Origin: Akkermansia muciniphila
GTDB lineage: Bacteria; Verrucomicrobiota; Verrucomicrobiia; Limisphaerales; BJHT01
Direction: 5' to 3'
NCBI GenBank assembly: GCA_945861535.1
Contig: CAMAUZ010000001.1
Span: 1-64,000 of the forward strand
Length of the DNA: 64,000 nt
The position numbers and the translations under genes are program-made. Under the pieces are notes generated by a model. That model saw only the letters and a list, made by a program, of their open reading frames with translations. It was not told where the DNA came from and ran no database searches. This document shows, piece after piece, positions 21,150-40,425 of this stretch (the stretch's first letter is position 1; each line of letters starts with the position of its first letter).

Positions 21150-21201
21150 GGCGGGGAATCAAGCAGGGATTGGGGGAGAAACAAGCGCGGCGGTTGGCTG
21201 A

Positions 21202-21298
21202 GGAGCGCGGCATTCATGCCGCTTCAATGTGAGGCTCGCGGACGCGTGTGAAGCCGGCAGGGCATTCGGACGCTGAAGCGGCGTAAACGCCGCGCTCC
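21202..21298. repeat. Inverted repeat with 'cggcgtaaacgccgcgctcc'
   Basis: ggagcgcggcattcatgccg at the left pairs with gcggcgtaaacgccgcgctc at the right; each arm is itself partly palindromic. The same word family occurs near 9388-9412, 31314-31345 and 49311-49414. It lies between mqnC and mqnA, so the cluster may not be one unbroken transcript. Confidence 0.75.
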
Positions 21299-21332
21299 GC
21301 CCGCCACGCCATCGCCCGGCCCTTGGGCCATT

Positions 21333-22220
21333 TCATTCCACATACTGCGGATCAAAAACATGGTTCGTGACGTGTTTGCGCAGCAGTTCGACGAACTTCG
21401 CCAGTCCGCGTTTTTCATCCGGGCCGAGGTGGTAGTGGATGATCCAGCCGAGGTAATCCTTGCGGAAGTTGTAATCGTATTCCTTCCGCTCGCCGACGAT
21501 GGCATCCAGCTCGCGCAGGCCCGCGGCCTTGGCCTCGCGCAACTGCCCGCGCAGCTCGGCGCTGACGCGCCCGCGGCGCAACGCCCACACGGCATAGACA
21601 AACGGCAGTTGCGTCAGCTCGAACCATGCGGCACCAAGATCCCAAATCTGGTGCGGGTGCGACTCGCGGACGAAGTCGAGCGCCGGGTCGCCGATCAGCA
21701 GCACGGCGGGGAAAAAGGGCGCGTCGTGATAATTCGGCAGCGGCACGAAATCCGGCCGCAACCCGCGCTCGGCCAGCAGCACGCGCAACAGGTTCACGCT
21801 CGTGAGCGAGGCGGTGTCGCAGAAGATCTGCGTGATCTTTTCCAGCGGCTCGCGGTGCGCGAGGAAGACGCTCTTTACCTCGCCGAGCGACGCGACCGCG
21901 ATGCCGTCGAGGATGTCGTAGCCCTCGTGCAGCAACGCCTCGGTGACCGAGACGAGCGCCGCGTCGAGTGTGCCGTCGCGGAGCAGCTTCGCCAGTTCCG
22001 AGGGCGGCGCGAAGACGATCTGATCCTCGAGTCCACGCGTGAGCGGGACGGCGTTGAGATAAGGAACAGAACCGACGCGCAACGGCGCGAGCGGCACGGG
22101 GGGCAGTTCCTCGAGTTGTTCGATCTCACGCAGGCGCTTTTCCCACTCGGCCGGCGGCCGCGATTCGAGCGGACCGATGGGCAGCAGGCGGAGTTTGGGG
22201 AGTGGCTCGGGATCTTTCAC
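21333..22220 (-). CDS. mqnA: Chorismate dehydratase MqnA
   Basis: 295 residues from a GTG at 22220 that overlaps the mqnE stop codon (GTGA); an upstream frame extension lies inside mqnE and is not used. The family pattern is clear: RVGSVPYLNAVPLTRGL, LAKLLRDGTLDAALVSVTEALL, VKSVFLAHREPLEKI, LTSVNLLRVLLAERG and ALLIGDPALDF. MqnA dehydrates chorismate to 3-enolpyruvyl-benzoate, the first step of the futalosine menaquinone pathway. The N-terminal about 45 residues (Pro/Glu-rich) are extra compared with typical members. Translational coupling with mqnE fits their consecutive steps. Confidence 0.9.
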   Translation of the reverse strand: MKDPEPLPKLRLLPIGPLESRPPAEWEKRLREIEQLEELPPVPLAPLRVGSVPYLNAVPLTRGLEDQIVFAPPSELAKLLRDGTLDAALVSVTEALLHEGYDILDGIAVASLGEVKSVFLAHREPLEKITQIFCDTASLTSVNLLRVLLAERGLRPDFVPLPNYHDAPFFPAVLLIGDPALDFVRESHPHQIWDLGAAWFELTQLPFVYAVWALRRGRVSAELRGQLREAKAAGLRELDAIVGERKEYDYNFRKDYLGWIIHYHLGPDEKRGLAKFVELLRKHVTNHVFDPQYVE

Positions 22221-23392
22221 GCCGTGGCGAGATTGGCTTCGAGGGTGCGCGTCGCCGGACCGGCGGGCGCGGCGTCGGCGTTGGTGGCGGCGGATTGGTC
22301 CCACACCTTCACCGGTTCGTAAAACGTGTTGCGCTGGACCGGCACCTTGCCGGCCTCGCGGATGGCCTTGATCATCGCCGCCTCGGTCTGGGCCTGCGGC
22401 GCGGTCGCGCCGGCCATGTGGAAGATGTGCTCCTCGATGATCGTGCCGTGCAGATCGTCCGCGCCGTAGCTGAGCGCGACCTGCGCGAGCTTCAGACCGA
22501 GGCCGACCCAGTAGGCGGTGATGTGATCGAAGTTATCGAGGTAGATGCGGCTGACGGCGATGGTGCGCAGCGAATCAAAACCTGTCGGCGGATGCGGCAC
22601 CGCGATGCGATTATTTTCCGGCTGATACGGCAGCGGAATGAAGCCCGTGAAGCCGTGTGTCTCGTCCTGCAACGCGCGCAACTGCCGCAGATGATCCACG
22701 CGGTCGGCCACCGATTCGACATGGCCGAAGAGCATCGTGCAGGTGCTGCGACCGCCGAGGCGATGCCAGGTGCGATGCACGTCGAGATATTCCGCCGCCG
22801 ATTCCTTGCCCCGCGCGATGGCCTGTCGCACCTCGGGTTGGAAGATTTCCGCACCGCCACCCGTGAGCGAATCCAGCCCGGCGGCCTGCAATTCGGTGAG
22901 CGTCTCCACCACGGATTTCTTCGCCAGCCACGCGAGATGCAAAATCTCGATGGCCGTGAAGCACTTCAATTGCAGTTGCGCGTCGAGCGCCTTGAGCGCG
23001 CGCAGCATGTCCGTGTAATGCCGGAACGGCAGCGACGGATGCAGGCCGCCGACGATGTGCAGTTCCGTGATCCCCAGCCGCCGGGCCTCGCGCGCCTTCT
23101 CGACGATCTGCTCGATGGTCAGTTCGAAGCCATCCGCGTCGCGCTTCTTGCGCGCGAAGGCGCAGAACTGGCACGAGAGAATGCAGTAGTTCGAGTAGTT
23201 GATGTAGCGGTTGACGATGTAGCTGGCGCGGTTCCCGTTCTTGCGCTGCGCCACGAGGCTGGCGAGCACGCCGAGCGCATTCACATCGCGCGTCGCGAAG
23301 AGCCGCAGCGCATCGGCCTCATCGAGGCGCACCCCCGCCGCGACCTTGTCGAAGAGATCGGCCAGTTCACTGCGGTGGATCAAAAAATTCAT
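22217..23392 (-). CDS. mqnE: Aminofutalosine synthase MqnE
   Basis: 391 residues from ATG 23392 (MNFLIHRSELADLFDKVAAG); the frame is open 13 codons further upstream. A radical-SAM motif CILSCQFCAFARKK, then ITELHIVGGLHPSLPFRHY, GLDSLTGGGAEIFQPEVR and STCTMLFGHVES identify MqnE. It uses S-adenosylmethionine to join 3-enolpyruvyl-benzoate to the nucleoside part, giving 6-amino-6-deoxyfutalosine. It is the first gene of the mqnE-mqnA-mqnC cluster. Confidence 0.93.
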   Translation of the reverse strand: MNFLIHRSELADLFDKVAAGVRLDEADALRLFATRDVNALGVLASLVAQRKNGNRASYIVNRYINYSNYCILSCQFCAFARKKRDADGFELTIEQIVEKAREARRLGITELHIVGGLHPSLPFRHYTDMLRALKALDAQLQLKCFTAIEILHLAWLAKKSVVETLTELQAAGLDSLTGGGAEIFQPEVRQAIARGKESAAEYLDVHRTWHRLGGRSTCTMLFGHVESVADRVDHLRQLRALQDETHGFTGFIPLPYQPENNRIAVPHPPTGFDSLRTIAVSRIYLDNFDHITAYWVGLGLKLAQVALSYGADDLHGTIIEEHIFHMAGATAPQAQTEAAMIKAIREAGKVPVQRNTFYEPVKVWDQSAATNADAAPAGPATRTLEANLATA

Positions 23393-23458
23393 CAGCGGCG
23401 CAGACGCTAACAGGGACGGCGGGGGGAACAAGGAGCCAAATCCAGCAGCCGGTGAAGC

Positions 23459-26953: not shown

Positions 26954-27262
26954 TCATACGGCTGCCTTCCTGAGTAACGCCGCCACTTCCGGCGTCGCGG
27001 CGCGCTGTGCAAGCATACGCTCTGTATCTGCGTTGAACTCCGCGGCTGCCATTCCAGCCTTTTGGAAGTAGAGCCGCTGAAGCAGTTCGTCGATAACTCC
27101 CCAAGCGGTCTCAGACAAGGTGGCATACTCGTCAGGGGTGGCAAAACCGCGTTCCCAGCCGAAGTAATTGTCCCCTTGGTAACGCTGGTGAATGCGAAGC
27201 ATCGGCACGGTGATAATGATAGAAGCGTCTGGCTGTTGGTTGATGTTGTGGCCTTCGTTCAT
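26954..27262 (-). CDS. Hypothetical protein
   Basis: 102 residues from ATG 27262, soluble and largely helical in the second half (AWGVIDELLQRLYFQKAGMAAAEFNADTERMLAQRAAT). I do not recognise the family. It lies between the secretin gene and the unknown gene at 26320, in the same lower-GC pocket and on the same strand, so the two may be a functional pair. That is inference from position only. Confidence 0.5.
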   Translation of the reverse strand: MNEGHNINQQPDASIIITVPMLRIHQRYQGDNYFGWERGFATPDEYATLSETAWGVIDELLQRLYFQKAGMAAAEFNADTERMLAQRAATPEVAALLRKAAV

Positions 27263-27369
27263 TGGGTGCGCCCACTTACGTTCGGAAAATGTGCCTCACG
27301 CCATAGATCGACATTTTATCCGCGTTGTGTCCTTCGCGACCTTCGCGTGTGGCAACTGCGTGTCCTGGC

Positions 27370-28584
27370 TCATTTCGGCGTCGGTTCGGTTTTGTCATCC
27401 GCCGGTTTCTTTTTGCGGATGGGGAGGTTTTCGAGGAATTGGTTCAGCTCGTCTTCGGTGAACTGCTTGGGCGTGAGCGGCATTTTCTCGGCCTCGGTGG
27501 CGGAGAGGGCGGCGAGTTGGTTGGGGGCTTGGATGATGTGCGGGGTGAGGAAGATGATGAGTTCGGTCTTGGTGTCGCTCTTGGTTTTGCGTTTGAAGAG
27601 ATTTCCCAGCAGGGGGATGTCACCGAGGATGGGAATCTTGGTGTCGTTCTGCGCGCGGGTGCGGCCCATGAGGCCACCGACGATGACGGTCTGGCCGTCG
27701 GGCGTGACGACGACGGTGTCGGCGGAGCGTTTGTCGATGGCGGGGGCGGTGACGCCGTTGGCGATGGTCTGGCGGTCGGTGTCGGAGACGGAGGAAAGCT
27801 CGGGGGCGATGATCATTTCGACGAGGCCGTCCTTGGTGATGAAGGGCGTCACTTTGAGAATCACGCCGACATCGGTGTAGGCGATGGAGCTGATTTGATT
27901 GCCGAGGGAATCGAAGCGGACGTTGCTGATGAGGGGGACGGATTTGCCGACGGTGATGGTCGCGGGCTGGTTGTTGCGCGCGAGAATCGAGGGGCGAGAG
28001 ACGACCTCGGCGTTGCCGGCCTGGGCGATGGCGCGGAGGGTGACCTGGTAATCTTGGCCGAGCACTTGGTAGAGACCCGCGCCGGTGGCGGTGATGGGCG
28101 CGGCGGCGGCGAAGCTGTTGACGGGTTGGCCGAAGGCATTGAGGCCGCTGCCGGTCGCGCCGTTGGCGAGGCCGCCGAGGCCGAAGGCGTTGACGACATT
28201 GCCGGTGGTGCCGGTGGTGAAACGACGACCGAAGCCGCCTTCGAGGCCGATGTCGGAGCCTTTGTTGTGCTGGATTTCCACGAAGACGACTTTGATCAGG
28301 ACCTGCGGCTTGGGGCGGTCCAGGTTGGCGATGATGTCCTTGATCTGGAGGTTGGTCTCGTCGTCGGTGACGATGATGATTTTGCGGGCCTCGGGGTCGC
28401 TGGAGATGGTGGCGTGGCCGAGTTCGGTGTTGTTTTGGTAGTCGCGAGCGTTGCCTGCACCGCCGCCGCCGGAGCTGCGACCGCTGCGACCGGAGGTGGT
28501 GCCGCCGCCGGTTTGGGGGGAGAATTGGGCGGAGGCGTGGGTGGCGGCGAGGAGGAGTGCGAGGGCGAAGGGGGAGAAGCGCAT
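27370..28584 (-). CDS. gspD: Secretin C-terminal part (GspD beta-barrel domain)
   Basis: 404 residues with its own signal peptide (MRFSPFALALLLAATHASAQ). A Gly/Ser-rich stretch is followed by the second half of an N-domain (ATISSDPEARKIIIVTDDETNLQIKDIIANLDRP). The secretin domain follows: VLIKVVFVEIQ, NAEVVSRPSILARNNQPATI, VGVILKVTPFI, VVTPDGQTVIVGGLM, IPILGDIPLLGNLFKRKT and TELIIFLTPHII. It forms the outer-membrane pore of the secretion system. The N0-N3 domains normally on the same chain are encoded by the separate gene at 29390-31051. The last about 20 codons are duplicated at about 26075-26130. Confidence 0.88.
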   Translation of the reverse strand: MRFSPFALALLLAATHASAQFSPQTGGGTTSGRSGRSSGGGGAGNARDYQNNTELGHATISSDPEARKIIIVTDDETNLQIKDIIANLDRPKPQVLIKVVFVEIQHNKGSDIGLEGGFGRRFTTGTTGNVVNAFGLGGLANGATGSGLNAFGQPVNSFAAAAPITATGAGLYQVLGQDYQVTLRAIAQAGNAEVVSRPSILARNNQPATITVGKSVPLISNVRFDSLGNQISSIAYTDVGVILKVTPFITKDGLVEMIIAPELSSVSDTDRQTIANGVTAPAIDKRSADTVVVTPDGQTVIVGGLMGRTRAQNDTKIPILGDIPLLGNLFKRKTKSDTKTELIIFLTPHIIQAPNQLAALSATEAEKMPLTPKQFTEDELNQFLENLPIRKKKPADDKTEPTPK

Positions 28585-29389
28585 GGGAGTTATGAGGGAT
28601 GAATTATGAAGTATGAAGGGCGGCGGTTAAGGGAGGTGCGGGTGACCGAACGGGGCGGTCGTAACTAGGAGGTGGAGCGGGCTTGGTGAACCACAGAGAT
28701 ACGATGAGCACGGGGTGCCGGAGCCGCAACCGGAGCGGAGCGTGACCGGTCCCCGTCGCAGCACGTGGGGCGGCAAGGAAGCAATGGAATACTCTGACGA
28801 CCTCCGCGCTGCGTACGCGGCGCGGGCGGGGACGCCCAGTCCCCGTCCCGGAGGGACGCCGGAGGAAATTAGCCGGGGGCAAGTCCGCCTCAGCGGACGC
28901 CGCCCCCGGAAATCGTGCCGCGTGGTACCATGCCCCAACGGGGCATCAAAGAAAATGGCACGAGGCGACGAGGGGTGGCGGAAATGCTGCGGGGCCGCCG
29001 CCAAGAACTTCTTCGATGCCCCGCTGGGGCATGGTCGGTTCGGCGGCATAACCGGGGGCCGCGCCCGCTGCGCGGGCTTGCCCCCGGCTAATTTCCTGCG
29101 GGGTCCCTCCGGGACGCGGAGCCAGCCGTCGCTGGCAGTTTCTTGATGGCCTGGTTGCTGCGGACGCAACGGCAATATCCTCGAGCACCGCGAGGAACTT
29201 GGCGCGCGGGTGGTCCCCGCCCGCAGCGGCTCGGCACCCGCGAAGGCGCAAAAAACTCCCAGCGCCCCGGCTCCGATATTGCCGCTGCGACCGGGGACCG
29301 GTCGCGCTCCGCTTTGGTTACGGCTTCGCCGCTCTGGGTTCATCGTGTCTCTGTGGTTTCAATTCCGGTTTCGACGGCAGCGACGCGAA
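28585..29389. repeat. 805-bp gap of several nested inverted repeats
   Basis: From outside in, facing arms are: accacagagatacgatgagc (28689) with catcgtgtctctgtggtt (ending 29359); a gaccggtccccgtcgcag pair (28742, 29283); tcccgtcccggagggacgcc with gggtccctccgggacgcgg; ggaaattagccgggggcaag with ttgcccccggctaatttcc; and tgccccaacggggcatcaaa with tcgatgccccgctggggca at the centre. No gene is seen. It separates the two halves of the secretin. Confidence 0.8.
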
Positions 29390-31051
29390 TTAGCGGATGC
29401 CGGCACCGCCACCGCCGAGGCCGGAGTTGCCACCGCCGCCACCGCCGAGGCGATTGCCGGTGCCTGGGGATTGGTTCTGACCGGAGCGAGTGGTGAGGGC
29501 GTTGTTTTGGGAGGTGCCGGTGGAGCGGGCGTTGCGGCCGGACTGGCTCTCGAAGAGGGCTTTGAGGACGGTCTCGACTTCGGAGACGTCGGCGTTTTCG
29601 AGGGAATAGACGAAGACCTTCTGTTTCTTGGCGGGGTTCTCGTCGAGGTTGGTGATCATCTGCTCGATTTGTTTCATGAGGTTGCGGGAGGCGCTGACGA
29701 TGATGGAGGCGGTGCGGGCGTCGGCTACGGCGAGGACGCGGCTTTGTTTTTTGGTGCGGTCGCTTTCGGCGGTCGCGCCGGAGCCGCCGCCGCTGCTGCT
29801 GGAGCGTCGTCCGCCGTCGAGGCCGCCGAAGAAGCTGAAGCGGCTGCCGCCACCGCTGCTGTTGCGGTCGTTGGACCGGGTTTCGTCGGGGAAGAGGCCG
29901 GCGAGGAGATCGGCCATTTCATTGGGGTCGGCGTGTTTGAGGCGGAAGACGCGGAGTTCCATGATGTCCTCGACATTGGTGTCCACGGATTTCACGAGGT
30001 CTTCGATGGTGGCCATGAGTTCGTCGGGCGAGCTGACGACGAGGGAGTTGCTGCGTTCGTCGGCGACGGCGACGACGCGCGAGGCGGCCGTGGTGCGGCC
30101 GTTGCTGGCTGCGGCACCGCCGCCGCCTTCACCACCGCCGCCACCACCGCCGCCACCGCCGCGGAAACGGGCGAAGAAGGCGGCGCGGGGATCGGCGTTG
30201 CTGTTGCCGCCGCGACCGCCGCCGGTGTCGGGTTGGAAGACTTCCTTAATGACGGTGGCGACGGTTTTGGCGTCGGCGTAGCGCATCTGGAAGACGCGGA
30301 TGGCGGCGATGCCGGCGACAGAGGTGTCGAGGGCGCGGACGATTTCAGCCATGCGATGGATGCTGGCCTGGGAATCGGTGAGGACGAGGGCGTTGCCGGC
30401 TTCGTTGGCGGTGAGGCTGGCGCGTTCGGAGAGAAGGGGCTGGAGATCCTTGGTGAGTTGCGCGGCGTTGATGTAACGGATGGGGATGATCTGGGTGACG
30501 ATTTCGTCGGACTTGGGAATGCCCGCGGGGTCGCTGCCGCTCTTGACGGGGATGTTGCGTTTCTTGGCTTCGTCGCGGCCGACGATGGTGAGGATGCGGT
30601 CGTTCTGGAGGGCGGCGTAGCCGTTTTTGTTGAGGACGATGTTGAGGAGGTTGAGGGCTTCCTCCTTGGTGACGGGCTGGTTGTTCCAGACATCGACTTT
30701 GCCGCGGACTTCGGTCTCGAGGACGATGGTGTAGCCGGCGGCTTCGCTGAGGTAATCGAGGACAAGTTCGAGCGGGGCGTTGCGGAAGTTCATGCGCAAC
30801 ATGCCGGGGGGGAGGGGCGTGGGAGGGGGAGAGGGAGGGACGGAGGGAGGGGGGGATTGGGTGAGGGGAACGGCGTTGGTGGTGGCGGGCGGGGCGGGGG
30901 ATGGGATGACCGGTGCGGGCACGGTGGGCGTGGCTTGGGCGTTGGTGGCGAGTAGGGGCGGGACGGCGGGGATGGGTGGGGCGTTGGTGGCGGCACGCGC
31001 GAGCGCGGTGAAGGCGAGGAGGAGGGCGAGGGTGAGGAGGGTGGATTTCAT
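29390..31051 (-). CDS. Secretin N-domain protein (GspD N-terminal part, no beta-barrel)
   Basis: 553 residues. A signal peptide (MKSTLLTLALLLAFTALARA) is followed by a Pro-rich linker to about 82. N0 comes next (LRMNFRNAPLELVLDYLSEAAG). Then come N1/N2/N3-type domains, each with an I-P-I-R-Y or V-F-x-L-x-x-A-x opening and a V-V-A-V-A-D-E-R-S-N-S-L type closing segment, with long Gly-rich loops inside. The chain ends in the first half of another N-domain (VFVYSLENADVSEVETVLKALF) and a Gly-rich tail, without the pore domain, which is the next gene downstream (27370-28584). It should form the periplasmic rings of the secretion channel. Confidence 0.85.
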   Translation of the reverse strand: MKSTLLTLALLLAFTALARAATNAPPIPAVPPLLATNAQATPTVPAPVIPSPAPPATTNAVPLTQSPPPSVPPSPPPTPLPPGMLRMNFRNAPLELVLDYLSEAAGYTIVLETEVRGKVDVWNNQPVTKEEALNLLNIVLNKNGYAALQNDRILTIVGRDEAKKRNIPVKSGSDPAGIPKSDEIVTQIIPIRYINAAQLTKDLQPLLSERASLTANEAGNALVLTDSQASIHRMAEIVRALDTSVAGIAAIRVFQMRYADAKTVATVIKEVFQPDTGGGRGGNSNADPRAAFFARFRGGGGGGGGGGEGGGGAAASNGRTTAASRVVAVADERSNSLVVSSPDELMATIEDLVKSVDTNVEDIMELRVFRLKHADPNEMADLLAGLFPDETRSNDRNSSGGGSRFSFFGGLDGGRRSSSSGGGSGATAESDRTKKQSRVLAVADARTASIIVSASRNLMKQIEQMITNLDENPAKKQKVFVYSLENADVSEVETVLKALFESQSGRNARSTGTSQNNALTTRSGQNQSPGTGNRLGGGGGGNSGLGGGGAGIR

Positions 31052-31445
31052 AACGGGGTGGCGGAGTTGAAAAGGGTGGCGGTGGTGGCGCGGGGTTGCG
31101 TGGTCGGTGTTTGGATAGTTTTACAGAACACCGCAGAGATGGGAAAGGCGCAGAGCGGGAATGGCGAGAATCGGCGCGGACTGGGGTGTTCCCACCCCTC
31201 ACCCTCATTCCCTCTCCCCGTTGAGGGGAGAGGGAGGTCCGAGGTGGGCATTGTGGAGACAGGCTTACGCTTCGAGGCGATGTTGATGCCGTGGCGGGTG
31301 GGACGCCGAAACTTCGGAGCGCGGCCCTCCGGGCCGCAGCGGCAACTGGCGGGCGAGGGCGTTGGATAATTTAGAGCGGCCTCGCGGGAGTGGTGCCGCT
31401 GCGGGCGGGACGCCCGCGCTCCGGTCGAATTGATGCGAAAGGCGG
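31052..31445. repeat. Gap with short inverted repeats
   Basis: It holds ccctctcccc/ggggagaggg (31210-31219 and 31225-31234) inside a longer phrase also seen inside gspK, and ggagcgcggccctccgggcc near 31316 facing gcgggacgcccgcgctccgg near 31405. No gene is seen. Confidence 0.7.
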
Positions 31446-32600
31446 TCATTTCTCTTCCTCCTTGCGGCGTTTTTCGAGGAGGCGGCGGAGGGCTTCGGCT
31501 TCGGCGGCGGTGGGGGCGGGTTCGGGTTTGGCGACAACGGGAGCAGCGCCGGGGGCGAGTGGGGACGCGGTGTCCCCGGAGGCGGAGTTGGTGGTTGAGG
31601 CGGACGAGGTGTTGGTGGTGCCGCTGGGTGCGAGGGGCGCGGAGGCGTAGGTGGTGGGCTGGGCGTTGACCTGCCATTCGCGGCGGTCTTCGCGGCGGAG
31701 TTGGTGGCCGATGCGGAGGGAGATTTCTTTGCCGTCGTTGTCGAACGCGGCCTGGTTGGCGGCGACGGATTTCAGCTTGAGGCCGGCGATGGTGTCGTTG
31801 AGGCGGAGGGCTCTTTTGTATTGGGACGAGGGGCCGTCGATGAAGGCCATTTGGTTTTCACCGTAGGCGAGAGTCCCGACGAGGGTGAAGGTCTCGACGA
31901 CGGCGGGCGGCGGCGGGCGCGCGGGCGGCGGGGTGTCGCTCGACGGGGCGCTGTAGCGGTTGCCGCGGCTGGAGCGGTTGGGGTCGAAGATGTTTCGTTC
32001 GGTGAGGATTTTGAAGGTGGAGAAATCGATGCGGGGAGTGGGGGGCTTGGTTTCGCGCGACGCCGTGGCGGTGGAACGTCCGGGGGCGGGCGCGGGTGCG
32101 GAGGGGAGAATGACGGGGGGCGGGAGGGGGTTGGTCACGCTCTGGGCAACCCCGGTGGGTGGGGCGTTGGTTGGGAGGATCGCGGCGGGCGCGTTGGTGG
32201 GCGGCTGTGGATTTCCGTCCCCATTAATCGGAGCGCCGAGCATTGCTCGGCCAGAGGGCGCGCCAACTGCATCGGGCCGAGCAATGCTCGGCGCTCCGCC
32301 GGGAGGATTGTTCTGGGGATCTAGGCGCGAATTTGGGTTGGGCGAAATCTCGCTGCGACCTTCGCCCCGCTCGTCCCTCGCGGGGAGCGGGAGGGAGTTC
32401 GTGGTCGGCACCGTTTTCAGATCAGGGGCGACGGCGTTGGTGGCGGGAGCAGAATTGGTGGAAGCGGCGGAGATGGCCGGGGCGGTGGGCGCGAGCAGCG
32501 CATCGGCGGCGTGGGTGCGCGGAATGACGAGCAACGTGGCGACGGCGAGGGCGGTCGCGAGTCTGGCGGACAGGGAGCGGCAAAAGCGCATGGGCGTCAT
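31446..32600 (-). CDS. GspC/PilP-like periplasmic protein with repeat-derived linker
   Basis: 384 residues from ATG 32600, which overlaps the upstream stop (ATGA); ATG 32591 is possible. A signal or membrane segment (LATALAVATLLVIPRTHAA) precedes a Pro/Thr/Asn-rich linker. A GspC/PilP-type HR domain is at about 195-300 (ILTERNIFDPNRSSRGNRY, ETFTLVGTLAYGENQMAFID, LRLNDTIAGLKLKSV, ISLRIGHQLRRE). The C-terminus is Ser/Pro/Ala-rich with a charged end. It would connect the inner-membrane assembly to the secretin. The linker contains a perfect 23-bp inverted repeat at the DNA level (32230-32297), so part of it is translated repeat. Confidence 0.75.
   Translation of the reverse strand: MTPMRFCRSLSARLATALAVATLLVIPRTHAADALLAPTAPAISAASTNSAPATNAVAPDLKTVPTTNSLPLPARDERGEGRSEISPNPNSRLDPQNNPPGGAPSIARPDAVGAPSGRAMLGAPINGDGNPQPPTNAPAAILPTNAPPTGVAQSVTNPLPPPVILPSAPAPAPGRSTATASRETKPPTPRIDFSTFKILTERNIFDPNRSSRGNRYSAPSSDTPPPARPPPPAVVETFTLVGTLAYGENQMAFIDGPSSQYKRALRLNDTIAGLKLKSVAANQAAFDNDGKEISLRIGHQLRREDRREWQVNAQPTTYASAPLAPSGTTNTSSASTTNSASGDTASPLAPGAAPVVAKPEPAPTAAEAEALRRLLEKRRKEEEK
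32230..32297. repeat. Perfect 23-bp inverted repeat inside a gene
   Basis: 32230-32252 and 32275-32297 are exact reverse complements with the core gccgagcattgctcggc. It lies inside the coding sequence 31446-32600 and is translated as part of the linker (APSIARPDAVGAPSGRAMLGAP). Confidence 0.95.
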
Positions 32601-33130
32601 TTATCTTTTGGCGTGAGGACCAGACCGCTGACGAGGAGACCGAGGGCGAGCTGGCTGCCGCTGTTGTCGCGCGAGGTGATTTCGACGGCATCGACTTTGA
32701 GGGCGAGGGCGTCGCGCTCGATGTTGTAGAGGAAGCGGGTGAGGGCGGCGAGGTTGCCGAGGGCATCGACGCGGCATTCGAGGGTCAGGTAGTCCTCGGA
32801 GTTGTGTTTCCATTGCGGTTTGATGGAGCTGATGCTGATGCGGCTTTCCTGCGCCCACCGGTCAAAGGCTTTGAAAACCTGATCCTCGGCTTCCGAGTTG
32901 TCGCTGGCGAGCGTGTTCGTGCTCATTTCCTTCCAGCGGGTGCGGACGGTCTTTTCGCGGTCGAGGATTTGCGCGCCTTTGAGGATATTCATGCGGAGCT
33001 CGGCGATGCGGGTGGTGCGGTCCTTCAAACTCTTGACGACGGGATTGAGGATGAAGCGGTCAAAGACGAAGAGGCCGACGGCGGCGAGCGCGACGATGGT
33101 GAGGAGTTGCTGGCGGGGGTTAGTTTGCAT
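32597..33130 (-). CDS. GspM/PilO-like inner-membrane protein
   Basis: 177 residues. One N-terminal membrane span (QLLTIVALAAVGLFVFDRFIL), then a coiled-coil stretch (LKDRTTRIAELRMNILKGAQIL) and a ferredoxin-like C-terminal part (YLTLECRVDALGNLAALTRFL, IERDALALKVDAVEI), the architecture of PilO/GspM. It would pair with the PilN part of the upstream fusion protein on the periplasmic side. Start and stop overlap both neighbours (11 bases with 33120-34562, ATGA with the GspC-like gene), indicating one operon. Confidence 0.8.
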   Translation of the reverse strand: MQTNPRQQLLTIVALAAVGLFVFDRFILNPVVKSLKDRTTRIAELRMNILKGAQILDREKTVRTRWKEMSTNTLASDNSEAEDQVFKAFDRWAQESRISISSIKPQWKHNSEDYLTLECRVDALGNLAALTRFLYNIERDALALKVDAVEITSRDNSGSQLALGLLVSGLVLTPKDK

Positions 33131-34562
33131 GGCTGCCTCCTTTGCCCCACCGGAAATTGATCGTGAATTGCAACGGCGATTTGCCGCGGATCTGGTCCAC
33201 TTTCACCTCGCCGATTTCGCGGGTGGCGCGGAGGCGGTCGAGGGTTTTGAGGAGGGCGGTGTTGTCGCGCGCGGTGCCGGAGCAGGTGACGACGGAGAGG
33301 TCGCGGATTTCGATGTTCTTGGCGGAGACGGAGCCGTCCTCGGGGAAGGCCTCGGTGACGCGGCGGAGGATGCTGAGGGTGCCGTAGGATTCATCGAACC
33401 ACGGGCGGAAGCGCTTGATCTGGGTCTGGAGATTTTCGATCTCGGTAACCTTGGCGGACATGCCGGCCCAGCGGTCGCGCAACTGGCTGAGGTGCCATTG
33501 TTGCCATGTGAACAATCCGGCGACGACGAGCAGGATGAAGCCTGCGGCGAGGCCGGCGTACAGAAGTTTTTTCGAGGAATAGCGGGCGGTGAACTGCTGC
33601 CACGCGCTGATCTTCGGCGGGAGAAACTCGAAGCCCGTGGTCTGGCCGGCGAGGTGTCGTGCGGCGAGGGCGACGGCGGGAGAGATGGGCGGATTGGCGG
33701 CGAGCGGGAGCGGCGCGTGCTCGGCGGTGAAGTGGGTGACGGACTCGAGTTGCAGGCCGAGGGAATCGACGCGGGGCGCGAGTTCGGCGGCGAGCTGGCG
33801 GGCGGGGTCGCTCTGGCCGAAGACGCGGAGGCGGTGCAGGCCGGCGCGAATGCCGGGGGACAACTGGCCGAGGGTGATGCGCAGCTCGCGGGCGATCATC
33901 GCGGTCTGGAGGCGGCGCTCGCCGCTCTCGGTGTCGAACGCGCCTTCGAGCGCGCGCAGGACGGCGACGCCGCCGCCGGTGGTGAGCTGGATCGCGACGC
34001 CGTTTTCGCCGACGGTGAAGGCGAGGATGCCCCCGGATTTTTCGCCGTCCGAGGGCTGAATCGCGGGGAGGCCGAGCGAAAAGGAAATCGCGGTGAGGCG
34101 CGCAGCGGCGAGGACTTTTTCGAGGCGGATGAGGTGGTCACGCGGGATCGCGACGAGCGTCGCGTGGCGTTCGCCGTCGGCGGCGGTGAAGCGCGAGGTG
34201 GCGATGATTAGCTGGTCGGGCGGATAGGCGAAGCCGCGCTCGGCCTCGAGCTGGAGGAGGTCGGCGAGATCGGTTTCAGGCAATGCTGGCAGGGGTGTCG
34301 TGAGGGTCAGCGCCCAGTTCAGCGGGAGGCAGAGGACGCAGCGGCGCTCCCGGATTTCAGCGGCGTCCAGGTGGTTGCGGATTTCCTGGCCGACGAGTTC
34401 CGGCTCGTTGTTGAGCGGGTCGAGGGTGAGGACGGCGGAAAAGTTTTGCTGCACTTCCGCGCCACCGTTGACGCGGCGGACGATCGCGCCGGTGAGGCGG
34501 CTGCCGTCGAGCGCGAGGCCGAGGAGGACGTTGGGCGGTTGGTTTTTGCGGAGGGGGATCAT
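33120..34562 (-). CDS. PilM-PilN (GspL-like) fusion protein
   Basis: 480 residues. Residues about 1-320 form an actin-like PilM/GspL cytoplasmic domain (VLLGLALDGSRLTGAIVRR, CVLCLPLNWALTL, LLQLEAERGFAYPPDQLII). At about 345-365 is a membrane span (LLYAGLAAGFILLVVAGLF), followed by a coiled coil and a PilN-type periplasmic domain (ILRRVTEAFPEDGSVSAKNIEI). In one chain it does the job of PilM plus PilN, or of GspL, linking the ATPase GspE to the periplasmic parts. It overlaps gspK (ATGA) and the GspM/PilO-like gene. Confidence 0.82.
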   Translation of the reverse strand: MIPLRKNQPPNVLLGLALDGSRLTGAIVRRVNGGAEVQQNFSAVLTLDPLNNEPELVGQEIRNHLDAAEIRERRCVLCLPLNWALTLTTPLPALPETDLADLLQLEAERGFAYPPDQLIIATSRFTAADGERHATLVAIPRDHLIRLEKVLAAARLTAISFSLGLPAIQPSDGEKSGGILAFTVGENGVAIQLTTGGGVAVLRALEGAFDTESGERRLQTAMIARELRITLGQLSPGIRAGLHRLRVFGQSDPARQLAAELAPRVDSLGLQLESVTHFTAEHAPLPLAANPPISPAVALAARHLAGQTTGFEFLPPKISAWQQFTARYSSKKLLYAGLAAGFILLVVAGLFTWQQWHLSQLRDRWAGMSAKVTEIENLQTQIKRFRPWFDESYGTLSILRRVTEAFPEDGSVSAKNIEIRDLSVVTCSGTARDNTALLKTLDRLRATREIGEVKVDQIRGKSPLQFTINFRWGKGGSHAN

Positions 34563-36058
34563 CGTGAATCCAGTGCGGCCAGGAGGTTTTGGCGGACGTC
34601 TTTGCCGAGCGCCCAGCCGAGGTAGGTGAGGTCCTGGCGGTAAAGAATTTTGGGCGCGCCCTGATCGGTCAGTTCGGTGGTGTCGAGGACGAAGCGGACG
34701 CGCTGGTAACCGCGGCCGTAGTGGCCGACGGCGGCGATGTCGGCGGTGAATTGGTAGGACTCGGTCGTGAGGAAGGGGCCGGCTTGGTCGAGGGCGTTGC
34801 TGTTGTTGCGGTCGAAAACTTCGGTGACCCAGGCGACGGAGGTGAGCTTGGAGGGATTGGACTGGCGGAAGGAAACGAGGGCGGCGGCGCTGTCTTTGCC
34901 GATGCCGGGGATGCAGGTGAGGACGGCTTCGGAGGCGGTGTTCACATTCACGCGGCCGGTGAGGAAGGGCGTGTTGGTGGTGGTGATGTCTTTGGCGATT
35001 TGCGTGAACTCGTCGGCGGTGAGGCCGCTGCGGGCGTAGAACTGGAGGGTGCTGTTGAAATTCCAGTTGTTGCCGATGCGGCGGAGGATGGCGTTGCTGC
35101 GTTCGGCTCCGAATTTTTCGAGGAGGAGCGGCGGGAGCAGGCGCTGGCCGGTGGTGGCGAGGTCGATGCGGGGTTCGCCGTTGGTGCGGGTGTTGGGTTC
35201 GCGGCTCCAGACGGTGACGTATTCGGTGATGCCGGGGTCGAGGCGGCCGTCGCGGTTGTCGTCGGGGAGCGAGGCGAGGCCGTCGTTTTCGTTGTCGTCG
35301 AGGACGCCGTTTCGATTGGTGTCTTCGCCGTAGAGGATGTCGAGGTCCGCGCCGTTGACGAGGCGGAGTTCATCGACGGATTCGAAGGGGGCGTTTTTGC
35401 AGCGGTAGGCGGGGTTTTTGCGGAGGTAGGTTTCGTCTTCGGCGCCGCCGGGGGTGACTTCGCTGTTGGTGTCGCGCCAGTCGATGATGGCGGCGGCGAG
35501 TTCGGGGGTCATGCGCGGGAGGGCTTCGAGCATGGCTTGCGTGGCGGTGTTGAGGTTGAGTTTCGAGGCTTCGTCGATGAGGCCGAAGGTGGGAGCGGTG
35601 GCGGAGGTTGACGAGGTGGCACCGCCGGCGCTGCGGTTGGTGCGGCCGAGGAGCCAGTATTGGGCGGGGCCGATGTCGATGGCTTCGGCTTGGAGCGTGG
35701 TGGAATCGGGCGGCTGGCCGGGCTGGGGGAGGTTGGTGAGTTCGTAGGTGACGTAACGGAGGGCGCCGAGGATGGCCTGCTCGGCTTCGGCGGCGGCGAC
35801 GCGGTTGTCGCCGGCGCGGTGTTCGAGCTGCATCGAGTGGGCGAAGTAGAGGGCGATGCTGACGAGGCCGAAGGCGATCCAGAGGACGATGATGAGGACG
35901 GAGGCGGATTCGTGGGAGGGTGCTGTATTGATTGGGGCGGGATTGTGTTGATGGGGCTGTTCTCCCTCACCCCGGCCCTCTCCCGCTGGGAGAGGGGGGA
36001 ACATTTGCGGCGCGGCGGCGCTGTGGAGCGATGCGGATTTTTGCTGGGCGAAAATCAC
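34559..36058 (-). CDS. gspK: General secretion pathway protein K (minor pseudopilin)
   Basis: 499 residues from a GTG at 36058 overlapping the gspJ stop (GTGA); ATG 36004 is an alternative. A hydrophobic helix at about 52-72 (SVLIIVLWIAFGLVSIALYF) is the pilin-type segment. The GspK signature follows: LIDEASKLNLNTATQAMLEALP, IIDWRDTNSEV, AEDETYLRKNPAYRCKNAPFESVDEL, and VNVNTASEAVLTCIPGIG. An acidic Asp/Asn-rich loop (YGEDTNRNGVLDDNENDG) may bind calcium. The leader before the helix is unusually long and includes PLPAGEGRGEGE, encoded by a ccctctccc/gggagaggg inverted repeat. Confidence 0.87.
   Translation of the reverse strand: MIFAQQKSASLHSAAAPQMFPPLPAGEGRGEGEQPHQHNPAPINTAPSHESASVLIIVLWIAFGLVSIALYFAHSMQLEHRAGDNRVAAAEAEQAILGALRYVTYELTNLPQPGQPPDSTTLQAEAIDIGPAQYWLLGRTNRSAGGATSSTSATAPTFGLIDEASKLNLNTATQAMLEALPRMTPELAAAIIDWRDTNSEVTPGGAEDETYLRKNPAYRCKNAPFESVDELRLVNGADLDILYGEDTNRNGVLDDNENDGLASLPDDNRDGRLDPGITEYVTVWSREPNTRTNGEPRIDLATTGQRLLPPLLLEKFGAERSNAILRRIGNNWNFNSTLQFYARSGLTADEFTQIAKDITTTNTPFLTGRVNVNTASEAVLTCIPGIGKDSAAALVSFRQSNPSKLTSVAWVTEVFDRNNSNALDQAGPFLTTESYQFTADIAAVGHYGRGYQRVRFVLDTTELTDQGAPKILYRQDLTYLGWALGKDVRQNLLAALDSR
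35963..36001. repeat. 'ccctctccc' inverted repeat inside gspK
   Basis: Arms ccctctccc (35976-35984) and gggagaggg (35988-35996) lie in a longer ccctcacccc phrase also present at about 31190-31236. It is translated in the GspK leader as PLPAGEGRGEGE. Confidence 0.8.
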
Positions 36059-36732
36059 GGTTGGCCTCCGGCGGTGGCGGTTTGATTGGTGCGGGCGGTT
36101 ACGAGGAGGGGGACGACGAGTTCGAGGGTGGGCGGGGCGGGGCGGGTGGCGTCGGGGGGGGCGAGGTTGAGTTGGAGTTTGATGGCGAGGGGCAGGTTGG
36201 TCTGGGTGGTGGTATCCCAGGTATCGGCCCAGGTGGAGCCGTTGTAGTAGGTGAAGGCGAGGGTGCGGACGTTGCCGAGGAGGAGTTGTTTCTCGGAGGT
36301 GGCGGTCGTGGGGGGCAGGAGGTTGCGGGTGACGGCGCGGAGGAGGTCGCGGCCGCCGGTGGGGCCGGCGTTGCCGTCGAGGTAGTAGGAGATTTTCTGG
36401 AGTTCGGAGAAGGGCGAGGTGTCGTCCACGGGGGCGGTGGCGGTGCAGAAGACGGTGGCGTTTTGTTCGCCCTGACCGCCGGAGAGGGCGGCGGTTTTGA
36501 AACTGCTGGAGAAGGTGCCGCCGGGGGCGACGAGGCCGGTGAGGTCGCGCTGGATGAGGGTGACGGCGTGGTGGATGGGAAGGAGTTCGTCGAAGCGGGC
36601 GGCGGTTTTGTTGCGGAGCCGCATGGCGCTGTAGAAGACGGTGGTGATGGCTCCCAACACGACGGCGAAGATGGAGACGGCGATGAGCAGTTCCAGCAGG
36701 GTGAACGCGGTGGTGGGGGGGGAGGGGCGCAT
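36055..36732 (-). CDS. gspJ: General secretion pathway protein J (minor pseudopilin)
   Basis: 225 residues beginning MRPSPPTTAFTLLELLIAVSIFAV, a short type III leader. The prepilin cleavage site is A-FTLLE, with Ala at the usual Gly -1 position. The body has the GspJ pattern (YSAMRLRNKTAARFDELLPIHHAVTLIQRDLTGLV, ISYYLDGN, LLLGNVRTLAFTYYNGSTW). It would form the pseudopilus tip with GspI and GspK. Located between gspI and gspK, the standard order. Confidence 0.85.
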   Translation of the reverse strand: MRPSPPTTAFTLLELLIAVSIFAVVLGAITTVFYSAMRLRNKTAARFDELLPIHHAVTLIQRDLTGLVAPGGTFSSSFKTAALSGGQGEQNATVFCTATAPVDDTSPFSELQKISYYLDGNAGPTGGRDLLRAVTRNLLPPTTATSEKQLLLGNVRTLAFTYYNGSTWADTWDTTTQTNLPLAIKLQLNLAPPDATRPAPPTLELVVPLLVTARTNQTATAGGQP

Positions 36733-36803: not shown

Positions 36804-37211
36804 TTAGGGTTGGGAGGTGTCGGCGAGGGTGGAGAGGGTGATGTCGTAGGGGTGGCCCTGGATGTCGAATTGGACTTGGACGGAGATGAGGCGGAGGGCG
36901 TTTTCGGTCCAGGTTTCGGAGGTGGCGCGCCAGCGGTATTCGTAGGGGCCGTCGAGGAGGGTGCCGCCGGGCCCGGATTCTTTCCATTGGCCGGTGACGA
37001 GGATTTCGTTGATGACGCGGGTGGCGAGGCGGGCGGCGGCGGTTTTGCGTTCGCCGACTTGTCCGGCAAGGCTGGCGATGCGGAGGGCTTGCACGGCGAC
37101 CGGGATGACGATGGCCATGAAGACGAGGGCGGCGAGGACTTCGGCGAGGGTGAAGGCGGAGTTGCGCCGCGTTGCCGCGGGGTTAGCGCAGGGTGTCGCT
37201 TTGAATTTCAT
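36804..37211 (-). CDS. gspI: General secretion pathway protein I (minor pseudopilin)
   Basis: 135 residues. Leader to about residue 18, then prepilin helix AFTLAEVLAALVFMAIVIPVA (Ala at -1, Glu at +5). The remainder fits GspI: LRIASLAGQVGERKTAAARLATRVINEIL and GPYEYRWRATSETW. It overlaps the 3' end of the gspH frame by 29 bases. Confidence 0.82.
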   Translation of the reverse strand: MKFKATPCANPAATRRNSAFTLAEVLAALVFMAIVIPVAVQALRIASLAGQVGERKTAAARLATRVINEILVTGQWKESGPGGTLLDGPYEYRWRATSETWTENALRLISVQVQFDIQGHPYDITLSTLADTSQP

Positions 37212-38013
37212 AATTCAGGCGGTTGCGGCTGGGGGCGAGGGTGAGGGTGGTGTCGTCGGCTCCGCGGAAACGGATGCTGGGGGCGTTGCCGGGCGGGAGG
37301 GCGCCATCGGGTTGGAAGCGGAGGGTGGTGGCGGTGCTGTTGTTATTATTGTTGGCAGCGGGCGCGGGTGTCGGTGTCGAACCGGGGCCGGAGGTGCGAG
37401 TGGTGCTGACCGTGATTTCGAGTTGGAGGTCGGGGGCGATTTCGAACTGGATGGCTTTGGGGTCTTCGGGGGTGTAGCCAGGGTCGGCTTGGAGGCCGTA
37501 GGCGCGGGCGCGGTCGTCGATCCAGAGTTGCATGGGGATGCCTTCGCTGACGGCGCGGCTCTGGGCGTGGTGGGTGAGGGAGAGGAAGCGGCGGGCTTCG
37601 GAGTCGAGGGTGCGCCCGCGGAAAAAGTTGGCGAGGGACGGGGAGGAGACGGCGAGGACGATGATAAGGATCGCCATCACGAGGATCAGTTCGAGGAGGG
37701 TGAAGGCGTGGCGGCGGAGTGGGGAAAAGGCATTTGAACCACAGAGACGCGATGGACACAGAGCGGCGGATCCGCAGCCCAAGGAGCGCGGCTGTGTCCG
37801 CCGAGGACCAGCCGCAGCGGCCCCGAAACCTCGCAGGCACCCGTTGGAATCAGGGGCGTCCCATGCGGCCAACCTGCTGCGGCTGGTGCTCCGCGCACAC
37901 AGCCGCGCTCCGGGGGCGGCCGCGCGAATCGGTCCGGGCGGCGGGACGCCGTCGGAACTCGCAGGCGGGGACGCCTGCGGGATGAGGGCGGCGATGGAGG
38001 GGCCGAGGCGCAT
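37183..38013 (-). CDS. gspH: GspH-like pseudopilin with repeat-derived leader
   Basis: The mature part is clear: HAFTLLELILVMAILIIVLAV prepilin helix near residue 103, then FFRGRTLDSEARRFLSLTHHAQSRAVSEGIPMQLWIDD and a beta-rich body with an Asn run. The only in-frame ATG is at 38013, six bases after the gspG stop. Reading from there crosses a 129-bp repeat (37783-37911) and a 'ccacagagacgcg' repeat, giving a leader of about 100 residues instead of about 10. Either the repeats inserted into the leader and it is still translated, or an unseen non-ATG start is used. An ATG near 37733 is in the wrong frame. Confidence 0.65.
   Translation of the reverse strand: MRLGPSIAALIPQASPPASSDGVPPPGPIRAAAPGARLCARSTSRSRLAAWDAPDSNGCLRGFGAAAAGPRRTQPRSLGCGSAALCPSRLCGSNAFSPLRRHAFTLLELILVMAILIIVLAVSSPSLANFFRGRTLDSEARRFLSLTHHAQSRAVSEGIPMQLWIDDRARAYGLQADPGYTPEDPKAIQFEIAPDLQLEITVSTTRTSGPGSTPTPAPAANNNNNSTATTLRFQPDGALPPGNAPSIRFRGADDTTLTLAPSRNRLNYEIQSDTLR
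37783..37911. repeat. ~129-bp 'gcggctgtgtccgccgagga' repeat, copy 2
   Basis: Same length and arms as 17796-17924 and 40235-40363. It lies inside the open frame leading into gspH and is preceded at 37738-37760 by 'accacagagacgcgatgg' words, the same neighbour as copy 3. Confidence 0.85.
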
Positions 38014-40042: not shown

Positions 40043-40425
40043 GCGGGTCAGCGCGTTCCGGGCAATGAGGACGGGGAGTTTTGACCACAGAGACGCGATG
40101 AACACAGAGAAGACAAAGAATGGGCCCGGCCATTCTGGGTCACGAGATCGTGACTTTCTCGCGAGGCCGCAGCCTTGCTGCTTTCTCTGTACTTCAACTC
40201 TTCAAATTCCTCGCGCGCAGCGAGGGTTTTCCCCGGAGCGCGGCTGTGTGCGCGGAGCACCAGCCGCAGCAGGTTGGCCGCATGGGACGCCTCGGATTCT
40301 AACGGGTGCCTGCGCGGATTCCGGCCTGCTGCGGCTGGTCCTCGGCGGACACAGCCGCGCTCCTTGGGCTGCGGCTTCGCCGCTCTGTGTTCATCGTGTC
40401 TCTGTGGTTTCATTCCCGTTTCCAT
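40043..40425. repeat. Gap of nested repeats between gspE and gspF
   Basis: Outer arms ccacagagacgcgatgaaca (40084) and tgttcatcgtgtctctgtgg (ending about 40409) enclose the 129-bp element copy 3 at 40235-40363. No gene is present. It breaks what is otherwise an overlapping operon. Confidence 0.85.

Follow-up and report, generated by a model that had tools for sequence, protein, structure and literature searches.

We suggest that two neighbouring genes at the end of a type II secretion system (T2SS) operon very probably encode one outer-membrane channel, built of two exported chains that are joined by a composite N-domain. Both open reading frames lie on the minus strand of the window, i.e. 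of the whole 64,000-nucleotide stretch of DNA that was analysed, as do all the features given below: gspD-N, the periplasmic half of the split secretin (29390-31051, 553 aa, P0001), and gspD-C, its pore half (27370-28584, 404 aa, P0002).

gspD-N begins with a signal-peptide-like N-terminus (MKSTLLTLALLLAFTALARA, 30992-31051), followed by the N0 domain (residues 87-153, 30593-30793; PF21305 type_II_gspD_N0, 52.9 bits, cut-off 27). The Secretin_N profile (PF03958) matches three stretches of P0001 with 154.7 bits in all. N1 (about residues 186-243, 30323-30496) is a Secretin_N stretch with boundaries set by us and pLDDT of about 88-94 in AlphaFold2; N2 (residues 252-358, 29978-30298) is the best stretch, and N3 (about residues 364-473, 29633-29962) was delimited by us from Secretin_N and AlphaFold2. 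An earlier note on this DNA had ascribed a Gly-rich loop to all N-domains; it is present in N2 and N3, and N1 has none. Next, at about residues 475-503 (VFVYSLENADVSEVETVLKALFE, 29543-29629), the pore-proximal N-domain begins with its first half (beta1-alpha1). The tail contains a conserved NALxxR motif (L519 and R522, 29486-29503) and ends in a Gly-rich free C-terminus (29393-29467). R522 is invariant in 32 rows of one alignment and in 35 of another, and of the 105 distinct pairs, 100 have an LxxR within the final 90 aa, a count made with no chance control.

gspD-C starts with a signal-peptide-like sequence of its own (MRFSPFALALLLAATHASA, 28528-28584) and a Gly-rich free N-terminal head (28444-28527), which is the least conserved part of the gene (64% aa identity to the sister species). 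At about residues 57-92 (28309-28416) the pore-proximal N-domain resumes with its second half (beta2-beta3-alpha2), followed by the secretin pore domain at residues 185-352 (27529-28032; PF00263, 164 bits). The contents read earlier for both genes are borne out: N0 to N3, the first half of a further N-domain and a Gly-rich tail in gspD-N, by coordinates, strand and Pfam, and a separate export signal, here a signal-peptide-like start, a Gly-rich stretch, the second N-domain half and the pore in gspD-C. By a hydropathy script with no chance control, signal-peptide-like starts are found in 103 of the 105 C genes of distinct pairs, with the other two recognized by eye, and in 97 of the 99 N genes that lie fully within their contig, the remaining 2 having none. 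The free Gly-rich ends are net positive; in many relatives they contain FG, which the ends in this window lack.

In NCBIfam, both chains match TIGR02517 (600 positions) best, with P0001 covering model positions 1-335 (240.3 bits) and P0002 positions 274-599 (246.7 bits). Each stays below the single-protein cut-off of 351.35 bits, so neither chain by itself classifies as a GspD equivalog. In the PDB, GspD entries match both chains best by sequence. N0 (PF21305), KH-type N-domains (PF03958), the pore (PF00263) and a T2SS gene cluster are all present, and a single protein above the equivalog cut-off is missing; on this sequence basis we call the pair a split GspD homologue, which would function as a GspD does. 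The cluster consists of the gspE ATPase (40426-42171; T2SSE 458.1 bits, MshEN), gspF (38684-40105; T2SSF 184.3 bits), gspG (38020-38664 as the longest frame, the true start being probably later; T2SSG 107 bits, N_methyl), a gspH-like gene (37183-38013; GspH 24.0 bits, cut-off 21), a gspI-like gene (36804-37211; T2SSI 17.6 bits, under the cut-off of 25, and position), gspJ (36055-36732; T2SSJ 46.3 bits), gspK (34559-36058; T2SSK_1st and T2SSK over cut-off), a gene at the gspL/PilM position (33120-34562), a gspM-like gene (32597-33130; T2SSM_b 18.0 bits, under the cut-off of 21.7) and, directly upstream of gspD-N, a gene at the gspC/PilP position (31446-32600). E, F, G, H, J and K thus exceed their Pfam cut-offs and I and M do not, while the L and C places have no Pfam match and are named from position only. 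Among 40 relative loci, many of which are short, context matches are found for the C position in 36, for L and M in 32, K in 28, H-J in 26, G in 25, F in 24 and E in only 7.

The two half-domains look like parts of one fold. Half 1 alone gives 19.9 bits to Secretin_N and half 2 alone none, and joined they reach 37.3 bits (cut-off 28.2); for comparison, a whole domain from this protein reaches 60.5 bits once its loop is shortened. For AlphaFold2, the composite was modelled from the read-through of L155 as one artificial chain, which favours the meeting of the two halves. In this model half 1 forms E115-120 and H126-142 and half 2 forms E285-289, E294-299 and H301-314, the element order being that of the preceding intact domain. 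The composite aligns with residues 106-170 of 2y9k_A over 65 residues across model positions 113-318 (2.4 angstrom, Z 8.2, VIA-align), and its best PDB matches in Foldseek are GspD proteins. The model reaches a mean pLDDT of only 61.2, with pTM 0.42. The KH-like fold is common, and the unrelated ribosomal protein 8a98_E also matches positions 115-318 (59 residues, 2.4 angstrom, Z 5.3). We infer a two-chain ring, as the earlier note did, and the predicted fold of the composite N-domain supports it. In the alignment, the relatives L072, L081 and L089 lack one complete Secretin_N domain and have the split domain in the canonical N3 place beside the pore; from this, gspD-N of the window most likely carries one extra N-domain, with the break in the pore-proximal one.

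We propose the following arrangement. GspD-N and GspD-C would be exported separately, as their signal-peptide-like starts suggest. GspD-N would bring N0 and three N-domains and end with the first strand and the first helix of one more N-domain. It is with this N0/N-domain part that known T2SS contact GspC at the inner-membrane platform. GspD-C would supply strands 2-3 and helix 2 of the same domain, followed by the pore. In the periplasm the halves would complement each other to one composite N-domain next to the pore, which would then join the pore to the module that faces the inner membrane, and two free Gly-rich ends per pair would remain at the loop position. The chains would associate physically with 1:1 stoichiometry, in a ring of about 15 pairs that would function in secretion.

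The two products might instead form separate rings or complexes, with GspD-C as a short secretin that suffices by itself and GspD-N as an adaptor in the periplasm that touches it with no shared domain. Each chain does have its own export-signal-like start, and RhcC1/RhcC2, as described in the excerpts of PMC3459982, are an earlier example of pieces that differ in origin and yet work together. The covariation test also lent the pairing no support, as the true partner did not stand out from wrong ones by mutual information over 104 pairs (top z 5.22 vs 4.42 and 5.02). We nevertheless consider separate complexes unlikely. The halves complete each other both in the Secretin_N profile and in the predicted secondary structure, and when P0001 is folded alone in AlphaFold2 the complete domains reach about 90 while half 1 stays at about 65-76 and forms no strand. 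Neither half-domain has an amino-acid change between sister species (dN 0 and dS 0.43 over 29 codons for half 1, dN 0 and dS 0.31 over 36 codons for half 2), and an adaptor would have no need of a half-domain retained over most families of the order.

Another possibility is that the operon is served by a single-chain secretin encoded elsewhere, on contig 10, 53 or 6, which would leave the split pair as a by-product or with a different role; the earlier note had already named a full-length GspD serving the operon from elsewhere as what would refute it. The genome does hold three other PF00263 secretin loci on these contigs, all outside this operon, and a secretin match of some kind is found in 58 of the 58 genomes searched. 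The most GspD-like of the three, on contig 10, scores 333.6 bits to TIGR02517, just below the cut-off and above either split chain. However, this gene adjoins its own GspE and GspM-like genes, and the contig-6 gene, whose best match is the Amuc_1098-type pilus secretin, sits after PilM. In relatives, too, the split pair follows gspF-M-type genes, and comparison with the sister species shows both split genes to be under purifying selection. A channel supplied from elsewhere is thus not favoured and appears quite improbable to us.

The two-chain reading is also consistent with the spread of the split. Bacteria with a split secretin are mostly uncultured. Adjacent same-strand split pairs occur in 38 of the 58 genomes of the order Limisphaerales (own genome included), and a fused version of the pair in none of the 58; the other 20 comprise 2 with pieces only at contig ends and 18 without a split pair, which count against the reading. 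Among the best 80 of 576 confirmed stretches from named genomes, ranked by likeness to the split query, 79 are split, none is fused and 1 is cut by a contig end. This set overlaps with the 58 genomes, and together they give 105 distinct pairs. The named relatives are records of Verrucomicrobiota, Kiritimatiellota and Omnitrophota. The fission is therefore shared by relatives, which the earlier note had left to be checked, and its alternative of unrelated paralogues with complete N-domains is contradicted there. In a quick-search tree of the C gene, all 110 rows labelled split by profile score fall on one side of a branch with SH-aLRT 97, and the output warns of long branches below the split clade. 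As judged from these sequences, the fission is old, the split rows forming one clade of Verrucomicrobiota and some records of neighbouring phyla.

We also weighed whether programmed frameshifting or stop read-through yields one full-length chain, which is very hard to reconcile with the data. In 32 of 106 rows the genes are in phase with a single stop between the frames. However, the second gene lies in frames 0, 1 and 2 relative to the first in 37, 34 and 35 of the 106 rows, so there is no conserved recoding, and recoding as a general rule is ruled out. The first gene ends in TGA (52), TAA (43) or TAG (11), the stop-to-start distance has a median of 35 nt and ranges from -101 (overlap) to 809 nt, and the second gene begins with a signal-peptide-like sequence. 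In the window itself the frames differ and the genes are separated by an 805-bp spacer (28585-29389), mostly a dispersed palindromic repeat of this genome, where 125 pieces match it in about 40 places (of 463 candidates, 40 were scored). The spacer stands at the same place in the sister species, with 718 identical columns among the 810 aligned, and has an RNA fold z of -17.7 against 20 shuffles. A sequencing or assembly error or a recent pseudogene, for which low-complexity DNA of the Gly-rich loops and contig ends there in some relative loci could speak, has practically no chance and is ruled out by relatives, as many independent assemblies have the same architecture, the half-domains are conserved and new signal-peptide-like starts stand at every break, the second one included. 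Gene fission rather than a frameshift, as the earlier note had it, is thus well supported by both signal-peptide-like starts, the random relative frame, dN 0 in the half-domains and the same architecture in relatives.

Six genomes of three families have three-gene loci, with a second split in an earlier N-domain loop and a middle piece that starts signal-peptide-like. In the three families the second break point is the loop homologous to the N2 Gly-rich loop. Most simply, a second fission in the N2 loop gave rise to a three-chain secretin in three lineages, or in at least two. The loop corresponding to the break forms the N3 constriction in single-chain GspD. We tentatively suggest, as a possibility that we rate as rather less than even, that the N-domain is a snap joint, with the pore and the periplasmic rings assembled apart and then coupled, perhaps reversibly, through complementation of the half-domains. 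The vestibule would then be lined not by the constriction but by two flexible ends per subunit pair, three-chain secretins would arise from the same principle at another N-domain loop, and the mitochondrial half-domain proteins GspDN2 and GspDN3 would be partners in one composite domain.

Compared with GspD/PulD/XcpQ (TIGR02517; PDB 5wq7, 5wq8, 6hcg and others), the pair has N0, Secretin_N and the pore in the same order and the same kind of place, at the end of a T2SS operon. Unlike there, two (or three) genes are used, the break lies inside the pore-proximal N-domain, one extra N-domain is most likely present in this genome and each chain stays under the single-protein cut-off. According to the excerpts of PMC3459982 and PMC3574062, the rhizobial-type T3SS also makes its secretin from two genes, RhcC1 and RhcC2 (NolW), as N-domain and pore pieces, and HrcIIC1/HrcIIC2 of the P. 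syringae T3SS-2 are split as well, the pore piece being split further in one pathovar. The Rhc pieces are described there as being of distinct origin, a T3SS-like N piece and a Tad-like pore piece with a BON domain, and their genes are not adjacent. Here, in contrast, both chains best match TIGR02517, the genes are adjacent in a T2SS operon and not in a T3SS cluster, and the break is within one domain. The mitochondrial T2SS of some heteroloboseans, jakobids, malawimonads and hemimastigotes likewise has its secretin spread over several genes (GspD, GspDL, GspDN1-3; excerpts of PMC8134430). Those proteins are eukaryotic and highly divergent, with the N1-N3 correspondence left unresolved in these excerpts, whereas the pair here is bacterial and operonic with the partner halves identified. 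It shares separate genes for half N-domains, but the GspDN family is otherwise defined by mitochondrial location, so the pair is no member. TadB/TadC, in the excerpts of PMC6668835, are another case of an ancient gene fission that has become fixed in type IV filament machinery; there it concerns the inner-membrane platform and falls between two whole T2SSF domains, and here it falls inside one domain of another component.

Last, as each gene is well under the GspD cut-off (240 and 247 vs 351), automated annotation may miss the GspD name; the contig-10 single-chain homologue does not reach it either (334), so any missed naming cannot be put down to the split alone. Secretins are viewed as rings of one long chain that covalently couples the outer-membrane gate to the inner-membrane platform. 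Here this coupling seems to run via a domain common to two chains, a joint that appears to be selected across many families of the order and beyond, and re-cut in some. The split pair may thus be a testable natural handle on pore-platform assembly and signalling and, in bacteria, a model of the half-domain pieces of the mitochondrial T2SS secretin.

The gspD-N gene (29390-31051, minus strand) encodes 553 residues. As read from Pfam matches and the sequence, these comprise a signal-peptide-like start, a Pro-rich linker, a GspD-type N0, three Secretin_N domains, VFVYSLENADVSEVETVLKALFE and a Gly-rich tail, in this order. VFVYSLENADVSEVETVLKALFE corresponds to strand 1 and helix 1 of an N-domain. 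The gspD-C gene (27370-28584, minus strand, 404 residues) lies downstream on the same strand; its product opens with a signal-peptide-like sequence of its own and continues with a Gly-rich head, ATISSDPEARKIIIVTDDETNLQIKDIIANLD and the secretin pore domain. ATISSDPEARKIIIVTDDETNLQIKDIIANLD corresponds to strands 2 and 3 and helix 2 of an N-domain. Of the NCBIfam GspD model, gspD-N covers positions 1-335 and gspD-C positions 274-599. The split secretin described in the earlier note is thus confirmed, with both genes read at their places and with complementary coverage of the model. The single-protein GspD cut-off of NCBIfam is undershot by gspD-N, gspD-C and the single-chain homologue on contig 10 of the same genome alike. 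The Gly-rich loop that the earlier note ascribed to all N-domains needs a small correction, as N1 is without it. The NALxxR motif is kept in the gspD-N tail, and its Arg does not vary in two sets of aligned rows (32 and 35).

The pair is followed among the relatives in several samples. The order sample (n = 58) consists of the own genome, the sister species and 56 others, each from a different family of Limisphaerales. Both genes are adjacent on the same contig and strand in 38 of these genomes, and fused in none; two (G032 and G039) have pieces only, at contig ends, and 18 are without such a pair. In the scan of named genomes the best 80 of 576 confirmed stretches, ranked by likeness to the split query and therefore silent on distant relatives, include 79 in which the C gene is preceded, on its own strand, by a separate N gene, none with a fusion, and one (L206) cut by the contig end. 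Titles of these records name Limisphaerales, Pedosphaera, Opitutaceae, one Kiritimatiellota and two Candidatus Omnitrophota, and several of them are metagenome bins. The order sample and the named-locus list overlap and jointly hold 105 distinct pairs. Fused relatives, sought as a control for fission, are absent from the 38 pair-bearing genomes and from the best 80 of 576 named loci.

In the phylum sample (n = 288) the C gene is matched at E <= 1e-60 in eight genomes, the own one included. Five further split pairs (L282-L286) come from G217, G179, G226, G150 and G208, and two loci with more distant proteins (L280 and L281, from G307 and G324) are without an N gene match over the stretch that was read. 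The N gene is matched at E <= 1e-55 in 161 of the 245 genomes of a wider order sample. Alignments were made from 35 of the 38 C references (A1; L072, L082 and L088 omitted), from all 32 N references (A2), and from the window with 34 of 51 N references (A4). Division of the type II secretion system (T2SS) secretin into two genes is general in this group.

A programmed frameshift or read-through, which would yield one chain from the two genes, is rejected on the frame statistics: in 37 of 106 rows the second gene shares the frame of the first, and the remaining two frames account for 34 and 35 rows. The 106 rows remain from 118 after 12 were dropped whose last 350 C residues are identical to an earlier row; the N row of a three-gene locus is its middle piece. 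A false C match, L102 (an 88-residue frame), is still within the frame, stop-codon and in-phase counts (106) and is left out of the later ones (105). Stop and start are a median of 35 nt apart, and the stop codons are TGA in 52, TAA in 43 and TAG in 11 of the 106 rows. A hydropathy script, run without a chance control, finds a signal-peptide-like start in 103 of the 105 gspD-C genes, the other two being recognised by eye, and in 97 of the 99 gspD-N genes that lie fully within their contig. When the window is compared with the sister species, dN is 0 in both parts of the split domain, with dS of 0.43 in half 1 (29 codons) and 0.31 in half 2 (36 codons); the Gly-rich head of gspD-C is 64% identical. 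Mixed frames, signal-peptide-like starts on both genes and half-domains with dN of 0 bear out the gene fission proposed earlier in place of a frameshift; the fission is well supported and is shown to be old and general in the group.

We suggest that the halves form one domain across two chains. Half 1 alone scores 19.9 bits against Pfam Secretin_N (cut-off 28.2) and half 2 alone gives no match; joined, they score 37.3 bits over model positions 1-67 of 69, with 60.5 bits for an intact N-domain of the same protein. Artificial read-through chains were made from loci with both genes in one frame, the stop being read as Gly; 27 of 28 such loci were aligned (A3; L228 omitted) and one chain, L155, was folded. 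In the AlphaFold2 model of L155 half 1 is strand-helix and half 2 strand-strand-helix, and the order of elements is that of the intact domain just before. The composite block has pLDDT of ~74-88 in half 1 and ~75-87 in half 2 with disorder between, and the mean over this one artificial chain is 61.2. The best Foldseek matches of the composite in the PDB are GspD proteins. VIA-align places the model span 113-318 onto residues 106-170 of 2y9k chain A, which we take to be one N-domain of InvG (65 residues, 2.4 angstrom, Z 8.2), and model residues 114..573 onto 7ofh, phage pIV (rmsd 4.7, Z 12.9). As the KH-like fold is common, the composite is matched by an unrelated ribosomal chain as well (8a98_E; 59 residues at 2.4 angstrom, Z 5.3). 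When gspD-N is folded alone, from an alignment that differs from that of the L155 run, the complete domains reach pLDDT of ~90 and the half-domain has no strand. In a mutual-information test between the halves, on ~63 effective sequences, the top couplings of wrong partners are about equally strong. A two-chain secretin with a composite N-domain is the best explanation, and we hold it to be quite probable.

The genes upstream of the pair, on its strand, include gspE, F, G, H, J and K above the Pfam cut-off, I and M below it, and two without a Pfam match in the GspL and GspC places. Hence, the gspD-N/gspD-C pair is the end of a T2SS operon. At 40 relative loci, many of them short contigs, the number of loci with a match is 36 for the gene in the C position, 32 for the L and M positions, 28 for K, 26 for H-J, 25 for G, 24 for F and just 7 for E. 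The longest gspG frame (38020-38664) opens with a stretch that by eye resembles QTSKSAVSRVSKPA and recurs in other frames of the window; its opening is therefore probably repeat-derived and the true start later. Elsewhere in the window, at 20058-23431, two radical-SAM-like genes and the one between them resemble by eye a futalosine-pathway menaquinone cluster.

The own genome (7.9 Mb, 169 contigs) has three secretins besides the split pair. The one on contig 10 is single-chain and GspD-like and shares a cluster (L106:3191-9694) with a GspM-like gene and a second GspE of this genome; the secretin of contig 6 is Amuc_1098-like and follows PilM; for that of contig 53 (L105:8124-9875, minus strand; 584 residues), neither of the two neighbouring frames scanned is a recognised secretion gene. 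There are four T2SSF proteins in this genome, with eight domain matches.

The spacer between the two genes (28585-29389, 805 bp) is largely a dispersed palindromic repeat, of which 125 matching pieces lie at ~40 places of the own genome, as counted from 40 of 463 candidates scored. The sister species has it in the corresponding position (718 identical columns among 810 aligned), and it is predicted to form a very stable hairpin (RNA fold z -17.7). Since the repeat persists, the pair tolerates a long structured gap. Rfam gives no match at the gathering score in 27000-31500. A promoter scan of 28400-29600 finds one sigma-70-like site before gspD-C (28630-28603, 9/12 matches, 0.0 expected from shuffles; consensus only), and transcription of gspD-C from its own promoter is conceivable.

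In six genomes a further break, in the Gly-rich loop of N2, divides the N gene as well: G004 and G349 (one genus), G028, and G048, G372 and G397 (one family), with the loci L067, L096, L099, L225/L265, L262 and L306, where L225 is the same contig as the G397 locus. The downstream (middle) piece starts with its own signal-peptide-like sequence and a Gly-rich head. Family searches find the three-gene form in 3/3 genomes of the G048 family, in both of the G004 family and in one of two of the G028 family, where the other genome, 56% complete, gives no match. On the C-gene tree, with five such rows, the three-gene state needs three changes, at least two of them forced by well-supported branches. 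Thus, the Gly-rich loops of N-domains are repeated break points. G349 holds, besides its three-gene secretin (L262), a second N copy in one piece (L307).

A quick tree of 145 pore regions places the 110 rows labelled split, by an A1 domain score >380, on one side of a branch with SH-aLRT of 97. Next to them stand six single-chain secretins from this order; four are giant open frames, and the other two are truncated by contig ends or by the limits of the stretch read. Outside the split clade are 25 GspD-like single-chain proteins, the contig-10 paralogue included, and ordinary single-chain secretins are placed at a greater distance. The tree output itself flags long branches at the join, and therefore the sister relation of the six to the split clade is tentative. 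Giant stop-to-stop frames with secretin matches (3112-5155 residues) are present in 11 of the 58 genomes of the order sample. The four that were read, L108 (2008-17472, minus, 5155 aa), L109 (3285-15383, plus, 35 Pfam Secretin_N stretches), L110 (2195-15022, minus) and L113 (2987-15412, plus), begin with a region that is N0/N1-like by profile, which is followed by dozens of N-domain-like repeats in tandem and then by a secretin pore.

Split secretins are known elsewhere. RhcC1/RhcC2 of the rhizobial-type T3SS are described as pieces of distinct origin, and one P. syringae pathovar is reported to split the second piece further (PMC3459982, PMC3574062); unlike RhcC1/RhcC2, gspD-N and gspD-C result from fission inside a domain, are adjacent and belong to a T2SS. 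In the mitochondrial T2SS of some protists GspDN2 and GspDN3 relate to halves of an N-domain, according to PMC8134430, whereas the present pair is bacterial and its partner halves are identified. Among the open-access literature matches listed, titles and abstract starts contain no description that we recognised of a bacterial T2SS secretin encoded by two genes. For V. cholerae GspD, PMC9251779 describes an N3 constriction.

The tails and heads of the two genes are Gly-rich and net positive. FG dipeptides number 81 in 105 tails (shuffled mean 39.8, maximum of 500 shuffles 54) and 134 in 95 heads (mean 67.2, maximum 90), about twofold in both. The window's own tail and head have no FG, and low-complexity runs alone can give such an excess; the idea of FG repeats at the free ends is therefore retained as speculation only.

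In T2SS the N0 of GspD faces GspC and the inner-membrane platform. We suggest that the N0 of GspD-N would likewise be directed towards GspC and the platform, that GspD-C would form the pore, and that the shared N-domain would serve as the joint between the chains, leaving two free ends per pair at the former loop position. If the N3 constriction of GspD is made by a loop of that domain, the free ends would lie in the vestibule.
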